Part shown: piece after piece, positions 8,847 through 30,880 of the stretch
Numbering within the stretch: position 1 is the stretch's first letter
How the letters are laid out: every line of letters begins with the position of its first letter
Origin: Bacteroidota bacterium
GTDB lineage: Bacteria; Bacteroidota; Bacteroidia; UKL13-3
Length of the DNA: 64,000 bases
Assembly (NCBI GenBank): GCA_040388375.1
Contig: JAZKBU010000007.1
Coordinates: 374,823 to 438,822 of the forward strand
Direction: 5' to 3'
Translations under genes and position numbers: made by a program
The notes under the pieces: model-generated
The model's database searches: none
The model's input: the letters and a program-made list of their open reading frames with translations, nothing else
Told to the model about the DNA's origin: nothing

Positions 8847-9767
8847 TTATTTCTTCACTAATTGTTGCAATGCTTCTTCTATGGTATAAAAATTAAATGT
8901 AAAACCCGCTTGCTGTAGCCTTTCAGGTACAACCCACCTGCTTTTTAGTATTAACTCTGTTTCTGTTTTTATAAGCTTTGCGCCTATTGTCAATAACCAT
9001 TTGGGTTGTGCTAATCCAATAGGTATATGCATTTGTTTACGTAAGCAACGCATAAAAACTTTATTGGTAATTGGCTTGGGTGATGAAATATTATACGCCC
9101 CGGTACAGCTATTTTTATGTATTAAAAAATCAATTGCCCTGCAAACATCATCAATATGAATCCAGCTGAACATTTGTTTACCACCGGCTGCTTTACCTCC
9201 TAAACCAAAATTTACCAGGTTAGTAAATGGTACCATTACACCTTTATTCTTACCCAATACAATAGCAGTACGCAAAGCAATTTGGCGTACTCCTAAGTAG
9301 GAAAAACTATTAAACATCTGTTCCCATTTTTTACATACATCTACACTAAAACCTTTTCCTAAATCGCCCGTAAGCTCTGTCATGGGCCTATCTTCAGCAT
9401 GCCTGTATATAGTCGCTGACGATGAGTTAAGCCACACTTGGGGCTTTATTAAACATTTTTCAATGGCTTTACCCAATATATAAGTACTGTTTAACCTTGA
9501 GTTATAAATTTCGTCTTTATTGGTTTGGTTATACCGACAATCAACTGAACGGCCTGTCATATTAATCAATGCAGCAATACCTTCTAATTCTCTTTGCCAA
9601 TACCCAAGTGTTTTTCCATCCCAATACACATACCTTATCCCCTCTTCATCTACCAGATTGTTTCGGGATAGAATAACTACATCATATTTTGATTTAAAAT
9701 AACTAGCCAGTGCTTTACCAATAAAGCCACTACCGCCTGCTATTACTATTTTTTCTTTTACACTCAT
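8847..9767 (-). CDS. TIGR01777-family NAD(P)-binding epimerase-like protein
   Basis: The 306-residue protein has an SDR Rossmann fold with GGSGFIG at residues 11-17, the segment LINMTGRSVDCRY typical of the TIGR01777/SDR39U family, SSSATIY near the active site, and RTAIVLGKNKGVM followed by FSWIHIDD. The C-terminus carries the DUF1731-like end (VPERLQQAGFTF). The family is not true sugar epimerases and has no settled substrate. It is the last gene of the minus-strand cassette, 4 nt after the DCC gene, and is convergent with the oxidoreductase gene only 8 nt away with no visible terminator between them. Confidence 0.88.
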   Translation of the reverse strand: MSVKEKIVIAGGSGFIGKALASYFKSKYDVVILSRNNLVDEEGIRYVYWDGKTLGYWQRELEGIAALINMTGRSVDCRYNQTNKDEIYNSRLNSTYILGKAIEKCLIKPQVWLNSSSATIYRHAEDRPMTELTGDLGKGFSVDVCKKWEQMFNSFSYLGVRQIALRTAIVLGKNKGVMVPFTNLVNFGLGGKAAGGKQMFSWIHIDDVCRAIDFLIHKNSCTGAYNISSPKPITNKVFMRCLRKQMHIPIGLAQPKWLLTIGAKLIKTETELILKSRWVVPERLQQAGFTFNFYTIEEALQQLVKK

Positions 9768-9771
9768 TGTA

Positions 9772-10605
9772 TTAATAAATAAAAACCAATGGATAAATTA
9801 ATAACCTAAATATTATCCAGCTTACACATAAATATTTGCTCCAACGGTATAAACCAACTCTACGCCAATGCTCATAAAACATAAACATATATACTATTCC
9901 GTAACTGACAGTAGCCAATAATTCTATTTGAATTCCGAAGTAAGATAATAAAACCAAACCTACTCCTAATAAGCCTAATAATAAAGCACCTAAAAAGGCA
10001 GTAAATGAAAGTTGTCCGGCATAATCGTAGAAATTTGTTTGCTTTAATGCAATAAAAACAATGCCTTGAAAAACAATTTGTGCTACAAATAAAACAACAT
10101 CGGGTATATGTATTCCGCTATGCATATACTGGCTTAAGAAATTTTTAAAATACCAGGTAACTATAACATGTACCACTACAGCATTGAAGGCAATAAATAA
10201 TACACGCCATGTTATAGAAGGAGAAGGCTCACAAACTTGTTTGTTATTGATAGCAGCCGGTGCTACTACTTTTCGGTTATAGGAAATAAACTGATACAGT
10301 AATGTAAGGAAAATATGAACCCATTTAAACCTGCTTATTGTACCTATAAATTTATACCTGTAAGAAAGTACTTTTAATAAGCTATCAATACCATAAGCTG
10401 TCTCACCTGTTTGGGTATTGAGCAATACAATTTTATTAGCCGCCAATTCTTTATCTATTAATGGGTATTTGTCAAAACCCATAGTTTGATAGGCTGTCCT
10501 CCCCTCTTTATCTAACAAACCACGTTTAATAAACTGGCTGGTGTAAGCCTCACAAAGTGGGCATTCTTCATCGTAAATTAAGGTATGTTTGTTTAAGGTT
10601 TTCAT
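9772..10605 (-). CDS. DCC/DUF393 thiol-oxidoreductase-like protein with a multi-span membrane domain
   Basis: The first 100 or so residues form a DCC (DUF393) domain with the signature IYDEECPLCEAY, giving a C15-x2-C18 pair, and a later YGIDSLLKVLS helix. The remaining part (about 130-277) has five hydrophobic segments, so the protein is an inner-membrane protein with a cytoplasmic thioredoxin-like head. DCC proteins are suspected thiol-disulfide oxidoreductases; this is family knowledge and not shown here. The fusion to a membrane domain, and the place between two small membrane proteins and an SDR enzyme, suggest a membrane-bound redox cassette. The start ATG 10605 is directly before the first beta strand. 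Confidence 0.85.
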   Translation of the reverse strand: MKTLNKHTLIYDEECPLCEAYTSQFIKRGLLDKEGRTAYQTMGFDKYPLIDKELAANKIVLLNTQTGETAYGIDSLLKVLSYRYKFIGTISRFKWVHIFLTLLYQFISYNRKVVAPAAINNKQVCEPSPSITWRVLFIAFNAVVVHVIVTWYFKNFLSQYMHSGIHIPDVVLFVAQIVFQGIVFIALKQTNFYDYAGQLSFTAFLGALLLGLLGVGLVLLSYFGIQIELLATVSYGIVYMFMFYEHWRRVGLYRWSKYLCVSWIIFRLLIYPLVFIY

Positions 10606-10652
10606 AAATGTTACTATTAAAAACTGGCGGCTATTTTCAAAAAGGCCTATAC

Positions 10653-11045
10653 TTAACTTACTCTGTTTTGTATGCTCATTTCTCTTAATTGGTTTTCTTT
10701 TGATTTACGTTTACCTCTAAAAAATAAATATAAATTCAAGAACAGCATTAAACCTAAGTAAATTGAAAAGCCTCCAATTTTCAAGCTTAATACTTCTAAT
10801 AAAGTCTGTCCGCTATCTACACTGTAATTGGTTTTAAGCATTAACATGGCAAAGCCAATATTGAGTAAATAAAATCCTACTCTTAATAAATGATTGGTTG
10901 ATTCTGCTATTTCAGTACGCCCTTTAAATATATCAAGCATAAATATTTTAGCATTGTTAAAAAGGGTTTTAGCTACATAGTAAGTTAAAAATAATGTAAC
11001 AGGTAAATAAACTCCGTAAGCTGCAATTAACATGTTGTTGTTCAT
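10653..11045 (-). CDS. Small membrane protein, paralogue of its upstream neighbour
   Basis: The 130-residue protein has four predicted membrane segments (about 7-27, 54-72, 86-110 with a break, and a C-terminal one) and a basic tail (FRGKRKSKENQ). It resembles the next upstream gene: both begin MNN, both have YLPVT, a Phe/Tyr-Tyr-Leu-x-Asn-x-Gly motif (FYLLNIGFA versus YYLVNLGYA), SVDS, and a late LN-x-Y-x-F. This points to tandem duplication followed by divergence. I do not recognise a function. It lies 19 nt downstream of its paralogue and 47 nt upstream of the DCC gene. Confidence 0.75.
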   Translation of the reverse strand: MNNNMLIAAYGVYLPVTLFLTYYVAKTLFNNAKIFMLDIFKGRTEIAESTNHLLRVGFYLLNIGFAMLMLKTNYSVDSGQTLLEVLSLKIGGFSIYLGLMLFLNLYLFFRGKRKSKENQLREMSIQNRVS

Positions 11046-11064
11046 AATGGTACTTTTTAAATTG

Positions 11065-11433
11065 TTATTGATTGTGTTGATAAAGTTTTTGAATTTGTTT
11101 GCTGAAATGAGAGAAGGTGTACATATTAAAATAATGTAATACGGCTAAGCCAATTATAATAATGCCTAAGCGTTTACTCAACTCTTCGGCTAGCTGCAAA
11201 TAGGAATCAACGGATGAAAATGTATTAATTGAAATGGCTGCATAGCCTAAGTTTACCAGATAATATCCAACCAGTAAAAACTTATTCAATACTTCGGCTA
11301 ATTCTTTGTTTCCGTTAAAAGCATCACTTAAAAAAACAATCCCGTTGGTATAAAATACTTTACCTATAAACACGGTTATATAAAAGGTGACAGGTAAATA
11401 AATGAGGTAGCTTATTAAATTATAATTATTCAT
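11065..11433 (-). CDS. Small membrane protein, first structural gene of the GbsR-linked cassette
   Basis: The 122-residue protein has about four hydrophobic segments and no recognisable catalytic motif. YLPVTF, YYLVNLGYA, SVDSYLQLAEELSKRLG and FNMYTF are shared in position with the following gene. Its ATG at 11433 lies just downstream of a hairpin terminator that follows the regulator gene and of a copy of the regulator's palindrome. This suggests that the membrane genes have their own regulated promoter. The function is unknown; a small membrane partner of the DCC protein is one possibility. Confidence 0.75.
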   Translation of the reverse strand: MNNYNLISYLIYLPVTFYITVFIGKVFYTNGIVFLSDAFNGNKELAEVLNKFLLVGYYLVNLGYAAISINTFSSVDSYLQLAEELSKRLGIIIIGLAVLHYFNMYTFSHFSKQIQKLYQHNQ

Positions 11434-11446
11434 ATAGTTTCTGTAT

Positions 11447-11464
11447 TTTCAATTATTTTTGAAA
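11447..11464. promoter_or_regulatory. Second copy of the TTTCAAT-ATTGAAA palindrome (candidate operator O2)
   Basis: TTTCAATTATTTTTGAAA matches the core of the palindrome at 12035-12058 at 16 of 18 positions. It lies 14 nt before the ATG of the first membrane gene. A repressor bound here would block the structural genes. I could not find a convincing TAnnTTTG element for this unit. Confidence 0.55.
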
Positions 11465-11474
11465 CTTTATATTC

Positions 11475-11498
11475 TAAAAAAACTCCACTTAAGGAGCT
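11475..11498 (-). terminator. Terminator or attenuator between gbsR-like gene and membrane genes
   Basis: On the minus strand AGCTCC, a 6-nt loop and GGAGTT form a six-pair stem (one G-T) followed by a run of T residues. It begins only a few bases after the regulator's stop codon at 11503. It should separate the regulator transcript, at least partly, from the structural genes. Confidence 0.6.
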
Positions 11499-11502
11499 AT
11501 CA

Positions 11503-12009
11503 TTATTTAATCATTTTTAAAATGGTTCCAAAAAACCAGCTTTCATCTGCTTTAAGCATCATATCAACCGATTTATCCATTTTACCTACAAAGCTGCTTA
11601 GGTTTTCAATGGTCTCGCTAAATGCTTTTACATCTTTGTCTTTTTTATCGCCTTCTACTTCTTTTAAGGTATTTAATATTTTAAGTACCGGTTCTATTTC
11701 TCTGCGTTTTCTTTCACGAGCTATAATGCGTGCTATTTCCCAAATGTCTTTTTCGGCTACAAAGTACTCTTTTCTATCACCGGGTATTAGTTCTTTATTT
11801 ATTAATGTCCAATTCATCAACTCACGCAAATTCATATTGGCATTACCACGTGAAATGTTCAACTCATCCATTATGTCTTCAGTACATAAAGCACTGCTGC
11901 TTATTAACAATAGAGAATGTACTTGTGCCATAGTTCTGTTTATACCCCACTCGCTCCCTAAAGTTCCCCATGCTTGGATAAATTGTTTTTTGGCTTCAGT
12001 CAGTTTCAT
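11503..12009 (-). CDS. GbsR/MarR-like winged-helix transcriptional regulator
   Basis: The 168-residue protein has a winged-helix domain at about residues 15-90 with a GbsR-like pattern: an N-terminal AWGTLGSEWGINRTMAQVH helix, recognition part DIMDELNISRGNANMNLREL, and wing WTLINKELIPGDRKEYF. An amphipathic C-terminal part is suited to dimerisation. Members of this family are usually local repressors. The perfect palindrome over its own promoter (12035-12058) and its near-copy before the next gene are the obvious binding sites. The ATG at 12009 may be at or next to the transcription start, so the mRNA could be leaderless. The inducing signal is unknown. Confidence 0.88.
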   Translation of the reverse strand: MKLTEAKKQFIQAWGTLGSEWGINRTMAQVHSLLLISSSALCTEDIMDELNISRGNANMNLRELMNWTLINKELIPGDRKEYFVAEKDIWEIARIIARERKRREIEPVLKILNTLKEVEGDKKDKDVKAFSETIENLSSFVGKMDKSVDMMLKADESWFFGTILKMIK

Positions 12010-12013
12010 AGCA

Positions 12014-12043
12014 CAAATGTAATTTCATTTTCCAAACTTTCAA
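12014..12043 (-). promoter_or_regulatory. Candidate promoter of the gbsR-like gene, possibly leaderless
   Basis: On the minus strand TTG (12043-12041) precedes TACATTTG (12021-12014) by 19 nt, an exact consensus match. The last G of the -7 element is only 4 nt ahead of the ATG at 12009. Transcription would therefore begin at or within a base or two of the start codon. Confidence 0.6.
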
Positions 12044-12058
12044 TAATTATTGAAAGTT
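12035..12058. promoter_or_regulatory. Perfect 24-bp palindrome (candidate GbsR-type operator O1)
   Basis: AACTTTCAATAA is followed directly by its exact reverse complement, with no spacer. The palindrome overlaps the -33 TTG of the predicted promoter, which is the standard position for autorepression. Additional TTTCAAT half-sites lie near 12075 and 12095, towards the divergent lipoprotein gene. Confidence 0.75.
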
Positions 12059-12156: not shown

Positions 12157-12849
12157 ATGAAATTTCTATTTTCAACAGTATTGTTTACTTTACTTGGTTG
12201 CAAAAAACCAGCACAAACTACTATGACCGTAAATACTTTTAAACCTGTTACTGTTAAATACCTGGCATTAGGCGATTCGTATACCATAGGCCAGTCGGTT
12301 GATGAAGCTGATAATTTCCCTTCGCAGCTAATTAGTAAACTAAACCACAGCGACTCTATTGATATTACTTCGACACAAATAATTGCAAAAACGGGTTGGA
12401 CTACTCAAAAATTATTAAACGCTATGGCCAGTGAAAACTTAACTGATACATTTGGTTTGGTTTCTTTACTCATTGGTGTTAACAACCAATACCAAGGCAA
12501 GGATACTGGTGAATATGCTGTACAATTTGAAAGCTTATTAAACAAAGCTATTTCATTGGCCGGAGGGATTAATAAAGATGTAGTTGTTATAGCTATTCCT
12601 GATTATGGGTATACTCCTTTTGGACAAAGCAATCAGCAATCTATTTCAAAAGAAATAGATTTATTCAATAGCATTAACCAACGAATAGCCAATAGGTATC
12701 AAATAACTTATTTTAACATTACCCCTATTTCACGCAATTATGATACGGATTTAGTAGCTAACGATGGGCTACATCCTTCTGCCAAACAATATGGACTTTG
12801 GGTTGATTTGATGTATAATCAAATAAAGAAACAATTGCTTATTCAATAA
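12157..12849 (+). CDS. SGNH/GDSL-family hydrolase, probable lipoprotein
   Basis: The 230-residue protein starts with a short hydrophobic signal ending in the lipobox LLGC (Cys15) and should be anchored to a membrane facing the periplasm or outside. The esterase fold shows block I LALGDSYTIGQS with the nucleophile Ser41, a middle LIGVNNQYQG block that supplies the Asn, and block V DGLHPSAKQY with the catalytic Asp-x-x-His. The substrate could be an acyl ester on a lipid or polysaccharide; the sequence does not decide. The 3' end overlaps the convergent map gene by 11 bp. It is divergent from the GbsR-like gene and shares the intergenic region with its palindrome. Confidence 0.88.
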   Translation: MKFLFSTVLFTLLGCKKPAQTTMTVNTFKPVTVKYLALGDSYTIGQSVDEADNFPSQLISKLNHSDSIDITSTQIIAKTGWTTQKLLNAMASENLTDTFGLVSLLIGVNNQYQGKDTGEYAVQFESLLNKAISLAGGINKDVVVIAIPDYGYTPFGQSNQQSISKEIDLFNSINQRIANRYQITYFNITPISRNYDTDLVANDGLHPSAKQYGLWVDLMYNQIKKQLLIQ

Positions 12850-26913: not shown

Positions 26914-26942
26914 AAGTATACCAATTGGTATACTTTTTTTTT
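26914..26942 (+). terminator. Terminator after the cold-shock gene
   Basis: AAGTATACCAA and its exact reverse complement form a 22-bp palindrome (26914-26935) followed by a run of T to 26942. It also lies before the stop of the convergent beta-barrel gene. Confidence 0.85.
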
Positions 26943-30840: not shown

Positions 30841-30880
30841 AAAAGAAAAGGCTATTTGAATTCAAATAGCCTTTTCTTTT
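30841..30880. terminator. Perfect 40-bp palindromic bidirectional terminator
   Basis: AAAAGAAAAGGCTATTTGAA is followed directly by its exact reverse complement. The hairpin serves the upstream lipoprotein gene on the plus strand and the convergent DUF4197 gene on the minus strand. Confidence 0.88.

Follow-up and report, generated by a model that had tools for sequence, protein, structure and literature searches.

Repressors of the GbsR family of MarR-type regulators, described as GbsR, OpcR, and YvaV in B. subtilis, OpuAR in B. infantis, and CydE in Alishewanella, adjoin the genes which they control (PMC6207618, PMC6096048). A choline aromatic cage was defined at residues 93-101 of OpuAR, and a survey of GbsR proteins reported no consistent neighbourhood for the members from Bacteroidetes (PMC6207618). 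In case of Chlamydia, YtgR bound between trpR and the downstream genes of trpRBA was reported to end read-through transcripts (PMC6504234). Repressor roadblocks are also described for LacI, CodY, CcpA, and PurR, where RNA polymerase is halted by the repressor on the DNA and transcription may be terminated as a result (PMC10310618).

Here we analysed a gbsR locus within a 64-kb window, i.e., the whole stretch of DNA under study, from a member of the Bacteroidota. With a probability of roughly 0.6, judged from comparative sequence analysis, this locus represents a Bacteroidia-wide regulon under a GbsR-type repressor, in which a first operator (op1) would serve autoregulation, a second operator (op2) would act as a roadblock, and the effectors would modify lipids or isoprenoids.

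Gene inventory and the regulator protein

In the ORF listing of the window, the genes gbsR, M1, M2, DCC, and SDR follow each other in this order with short gaps between them, all on the minus strand (Table 1). The SDR gene begins 4 nt past the DCC gene and falls just beyond the interval covered by the initial annotation, which had assigned a GbsR-type regulator, two paralogous small membrane proteins, a DCC-domain membrane protein, and an SDR enzyme to one compact unit. All of these assignments hold. The regulator profile matches MJ223 (PDB 1ku9) at E=1.5e-22, which indicates the winged-helix fold by sequence, the M2 profile retrieves M1 at E=1e-22, and the models PF04134 (30.6 bits, gathering cut-off 27.8) and TIGR01777 (261.3 bits, cut-off 207.35) are both exceeded. 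Likewise, the described palindrome is perfect, and the second site ahead of M1 is present.

Table 1. Annotated and predicted features of the gbsR locus (window coordinates)
Feature	Position	Strand	Basis
gbsR, GbsR/MarR-type winged-helix repressor, 168 aa	11503-12009	-	ORF and profile match; single copy in genome
M1, membrane protein, 122 aa, M2 paralogue	11065-11433	-	ORF
M2, membrane protein, 130 aa, most conserved effector	10653-11045	-	ORF
DCC-domain membrane protein	9772-10605	-	ORF; Pfam PF04134, E=8.5e-7
SDR of family TIGR01777 (YfcH-like, DUF1731), terminal gene of the unit	8847-9767	-	NCBIfam
op1, perfect 24-bp palindrome AACTTTCAATAATTATTGAAAGTT, predicted operator on the gbsR promoter	12035-12058		Conservation
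-33 TTG of the gbsR promoter, within the right arm of op1	12041-12043	-	Same geometry in 46/72 op1 loci
-7 element TACATTTG (TAnnTTTG)	12014-12021	-	Start codon 4 nt downstream
op2, second predicted operator, TTTCAATTATTTTTGAAA, 13 nt ahead of the M1 start codon	11447-11464		16/18 match, differs at 2 of 18
Hairpin AGCTCC-TTAAGT-GGAGTT, terminator-like, just past the gbsR stop	11481-11498	-	z about -4.6
T7 run with its end 11 nt ahead of op2; putative tract for pausing or termination	11476-11482	-	T-run conservation

Due to the fact that it reaches only 41.6 bits with the model of the choline regulator CudC/GbsR, far under the cut-off of 218, the gbsR product is not regarded as the choline equivalog. 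That it responds to choline or betaine in osmostress, like GbsR of B. subtilis, is very improbable, even though it belongs to the same family and the CudC model is weakly matched. Residues 87-106 (KDIWEIARIIARERKRREIE), which cover the cage region according to an approximate mapping via the CudC model, contain no or one aromatic residue in most of the 86 proteins compared below, and the stretch equivalent to the cage corresponds approximately to ARIIARERK in the protein of the window, with zero aromatics. Furthermore, neither osmoprotectant nor cyd genes were identified beside gbsR in the neighbourhoods examined. In the alignment of the regulators no cysteine column exceeds 6%, which makes a cysteine-based redox switch in this protein improbable.

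Conservation and distribution of the operator sites

For the class-wide comparison, gbsR loci were gathered by protein similarity alone without use of the motif, and removal of near-duplicates left 86 non-redundant loci. The 18-mer TTTCAAT-N4-ATTGAAA was scored out of 14 in fixed flanks (for op2, at most 130 nt after gbsR) with the reversed motif as control. A score of at least 12 was reached for op1 in 62 of the 86 loci (control 0/86) and for op2 in 42 (control 2/86), mostly 15-25 nt past the gbsR stop codon; half of the loci lack a good op2. At a threshold of 11, op1 was found in 72 loci, in 52 of them at -44 to -47 relative to gbsR. Related sequences among the 86 loci are not fully independent, but kinship does not explain the contrast with the control. 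Among family-level groups, op1 occurs in at least 27 and op2 in 20, so that the predicted layout with two switches is shared by 20 or more bacterial families. Gene order and palindrome, for which the initial annotation had proposed a search in other genomes, are strongly conserved in relatives, and the second operator it had placed ahead of the effector genes is supported by the same comparison.

In the own genome of the window, the 18-mer occurs 11 times with at most one mismatch, compared to 10 times for the control pattern. The significance of the sites hence derives from their conservation across loci, since the motif alone is not rare. A large regulon in this genome was rejected, as the motif is not enriched over the control and 7 of the 9 other sites are intragenic.

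The palindrome op1, which is the second-longest perfect palindrome of the window, overlaps the -33 TTG of the gbsR promoter, as initially proposed. On the minus strand, this TTG is followed by 19 nt, TACATTTG, another 4 nt, and the ATG (12009), in agreement with the criterion used for Bacteroidota primary-sigma promoters (-33 TTG, -7 TAnnTTTG, spacing of about 19 nt). The pattern TTG-N17-21-TAnnTTTG was found in 46 of the 72 op1 regions. Both the placement of op1 and its class-wide conservation support its predicted function as autoregulatory operator. Since the -7 element ends only 3-4 nt from the start codon (39 of the 52 loci having this element), the gbsR mRNA is probably leaderless. In F. 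psychrophilum, 5.5% of the mapped mRNAs are leaderless (PMC9723704).

Two further perfect palindromes occur in the window, a 40-bp palindrome at 30841-30880 (AAAAGAAAAGGCTATTTGAATTCAAATAGCCTTTTCTTTT), possibly a two-way terminator, and a 22-bp palindrome at 26914-26935 (AAGTATACCAATTGGTATACTT), possibly another operator. The divergently oriented GDSL lipase gene (12157-12849), which faces gbsR across op1, was rejected as a target; it is not located beside gbsR in relatives.

Within the order to which the window belongs, the regulator is present in 23 of 64 genomes. In the two main genera, and in a third one, gbsR is followed by M1-M2, in the genus of the window mostly also by DCC-SDR. Both operators are usually retained in the genera of this order with gbsR-M1-M2; genera with gbsR in other positions mostly lack the motif. 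An exception is given by genome G032 with the motif on both sides: at its locus L049, gbsR adjoins mutS, with operator-like sites on either side and no M1-M2. In another genome (L144), M1-M2 are located next to a divergent gene of similar size (859 aa).

A class-wide search of 295 genomes revealed M2 in 37 and gbsR in 99, with M1-M2 being widespread, above all in Flavobacterium. The Flavobacterium operon combines varying subsets of gbsR, small membrane proteins, DUF2071, M1, M2, DCC, SDR, desaturase, and SRPBCC. Most operons of this type carry the operator 47 nt before gbsR, with regulators only about 48% identical to that of the window. Four loci (L278, L280, L281, and L282) have op1-like sites and GbsR proteins that are more divergent and about 175-187 aa long; here, gbsR is followed by the gene of a conserved protein (about 160 aa) in which DLHARESMRLGWYR occurs.

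Nearly all op1-positive regulators share the recognition helix SRGNANMNLR or a close variant, and the six members of family f43 have SRGNVSINLR and lack the motif. The match of helix and motif is considered supportive only, because some motif-negative regulators retain the same helix.

M1-M2 copies away from gbsR allowed a test in trans. All genomes with an operator before an unlinked M1 (G074, G139, G146, G270, and, with a weaker site, G284) possess gbsR elsewhere (E<1e-67); in G146 no clear operator is found at gbsR itself. M1-M2 of G063 (99% complete) lack the operator, and this genome has no gbsR. G308, without operator and with only a weak and partial gbsR match, fits the test loosely, and G178, where gbsR and M1 are present without operators, is contrary to it. 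In G139, a promoter of the op1 type comes first, then a hairpin with T6, then op2 and the unlinked M1-M2, with no gbsR in between; the site pair therefore travels with the effectors and not only with gbsR. Taken together with the operator conservation, the trans test makes the DNA logic look like autoregulation of a repressor plus a second site gating the effectors.

Proposed control of transcription at the second operator

A run of six to eight T residues ends 9-13 nt upstream of op2 in 32 of 48 loci, compared to 6 of 72 for op1 (Fisher p about 1e-11 for the two proportions); the background frequency in random windows is 2.6%. In most of the remaining 16 op2 loci, i.e., about a third of the total, an A-tract is found instead, a feature compatible both with DNA bending and with a weak RNA:DNA hybrid. 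The T-run stays before op2 also where M0 instead of gbsR is the upstream gene. These M0 genes (L040, L041, L042, L043, and L044 of genus g2) encode an extra small membrane protein between gbsR and op2, and their C-terminal Phe-Phe codons make up the T-run. The hairpin that had been noted as a terminator after the regulator is real in the window, where it is combined with the T-run, and it is present in the genus of the window, but hairpins of -4 kcal/mol or better precede the T-run in only 13 of the 32 loci; the general feature is the A/T-tract 9-13 nt before op2.

Strong comparative evidence supports the prediction that GbsR binds TTTCAAT-N4-ATTGAAA and that, at op1, it would cover its own -33 element and thereby repress gbsR together with the genes behind. 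At op2, GbsR would block no promoter and would instead stop RNA polymerase that has started at the gbsR promoter. Stalling may then take place over the A/T-tract, here T7 and, in the genus of the window, also a hairpin, and be followed by release of the polymerase. A ligand that frees GbsR would open both sites together, resulting in co-expression of M1, M2, DCC, and SDR. Such a roadblock on read-through is favoured because op2 has no standard promoter yet is preceded by an A/T-tract at 9-13 nt. A more specific version, in which op2 and the A/T-tract form a repressor-gated terminator and GbsR halts the polymerase where the RNA:DNA hybrid is weakest, is put forward tentatively. If it applies, GbsR itself would choose between short transcripts (gbsR only) and long ones (gbsR and effectors), and Bacteroidia would possess a widespread, undescribed device of regulated termination which does not need RNA structure.

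The initial annotation had instead regarded the effectors as separately controlled. In such a model, op2 would cover a promoter of their own, either read by another sigma factor or having a weak -7 element, so that one repressor would serve two transcription units. In some genera, gbsR is indeed followed by a hairpin and T-run resembling a true terminator, which would require a new promoter for the effectors, and the operator at the unlinked M1-M2 of G074 (L188) carries its own TATATTTG. However, op2 usually lies only 17-20 nt past the gbsR stop codon and about 15 nt ahead of the next start codon. Moreover, TTG-N17-21-TAnnTTTG, the pattern so frequent at op1, was found in none of the 48 op2 regions, and the TAnnTTTG box by itself is no more frequent there than expected (2/48, compared to 4.2 in shuffles). 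The effectors are thus probably not separately promoted, and we regard this model as doubtful. Bridging of op1 and op2 by GbsR, by which about 570 bp of DNA would be looped and the A/T-tract would be a bend aiding the loop or the binding rather than a termination element, is a still weaker candidate. It would account for the nearly constant spacing of the two sites (556-587 bp) and for the fact that T7 and A7TTT are both A-tracts ending about one helical turn before op2, but the constant spacing follows already from the fixed length of gbsR, and the distances do not fall into one sharp helical phase. In addition, an inserted M0 shifts op2 several hundred bp further, and the two sites at M1 of G139 are only 88 bp apart.

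Effector genes and comparison with described systems

Neither M1 nor M2 reaches the gathering threshold of any Pfam model. The AF2 model of M2 consists of three long helices (pLDDT 85.7), for which a fold search against PDB returned nothing better than E=0.8. In DCC, the motif D-x-x-C-x-x-C (D12, C15, and C18) is invariant in the alignment, and the predicted model combines a thioredoxin/glutaredoxin-like N-terminal part with five helices of transmembrane length; the fold search gave only weak glutaredoxin-like matches. Among 75 core loci, many of them covered over a length of only 1.5 kb, SDR was counted in 31, M2 in 30, DCC in 26, M1 in 24, a CMAS-like methyltransferase in 10, SRPBCC in 9, and DUF2071 in 5. 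Single cases in sister operons are a desaturase, a DoxX-like protein, and a polyprenyl synthetase; the gene of the latter (L275:1182-2138) is situated after gbsR with a perfect op2-type site directly before it.

With respect to their role, the initial annotation had suggested a thiol-redox or membrane-lipid response. The lipid idea gains support from the desaturase, the CMAS-like methyltransferases, and the polyprenyl synthetase, together with DoxX, in the sister operons, i.e., from guilt by association, and modification of membrane lipids or isoprenoids is our leading, albeit tentative, assumption for the effector theme. The effectors might modify these compounds under some envelope stress, drawing on an interchangeable pool of enzymes and small membrane proteins. 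A thiol-redox or disulfide-stress system centred on the DCC protein appears rather unlikely: the invariant DxxCxxC motif, the thioredoxin/glutaredoxin-like model, and the frequency of DCC among the partly read core loci speak for it, but many operons with these operators lack DCC, among them those of the g2 genera in the family of the window, and the regulator has no conserved cysteine. A link to light or photolyase was rejected, since the sole photolyase gene of the genome (C4:308943) is not at the locus and no paper in the open-access literature searched links these families with one another.

With its operator, a layout of two sites, and a recurring pool of effectors, the Bacteroidetes branch of GbsR obtains a consistent neighbourhood and a concrete candidate regulon in a class which includes Flavobacterium and in which it is testable in F. 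johnsoniae. At the same time, the uncharacterised families M1/M2, DUF2071, DCC, and TIGR01777 gain a common regulatory context, and the A/T-tract before op2 suggests a simple coupling of a repressor to transcript termination. This is a conserved regulon, apparently undescribed in the open-access literature searched, with a known regulator family and a distinctive two-site layout.

Compared to the described members of the GbsR family, with which the regulator shares the fold, the proteins analysed here have no choline aromatic cage and no osmoprotectant or cyd genes found alongside, and their genes are associated with the conserved TTTCAAT-N4-ATTGAAA operator pair. Unlike in roadblocks in general, the operator is preceded here by an A/T-tract whose distance from it is fixed and which is conserved in many families; we know of no precedent for this. 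Similar to YtgR and trpRBA, a predicted repressor site separates the regulator gene from the genes that follow it in the operon. The chlamydial intergenic region, however, spans 348 bp with an alternative promoter, and its blocker is not encoded by the first gene of the operon, whereas at op2 no promoter is visible and the proposed blocker is itself the product of the first gene, gbsR.
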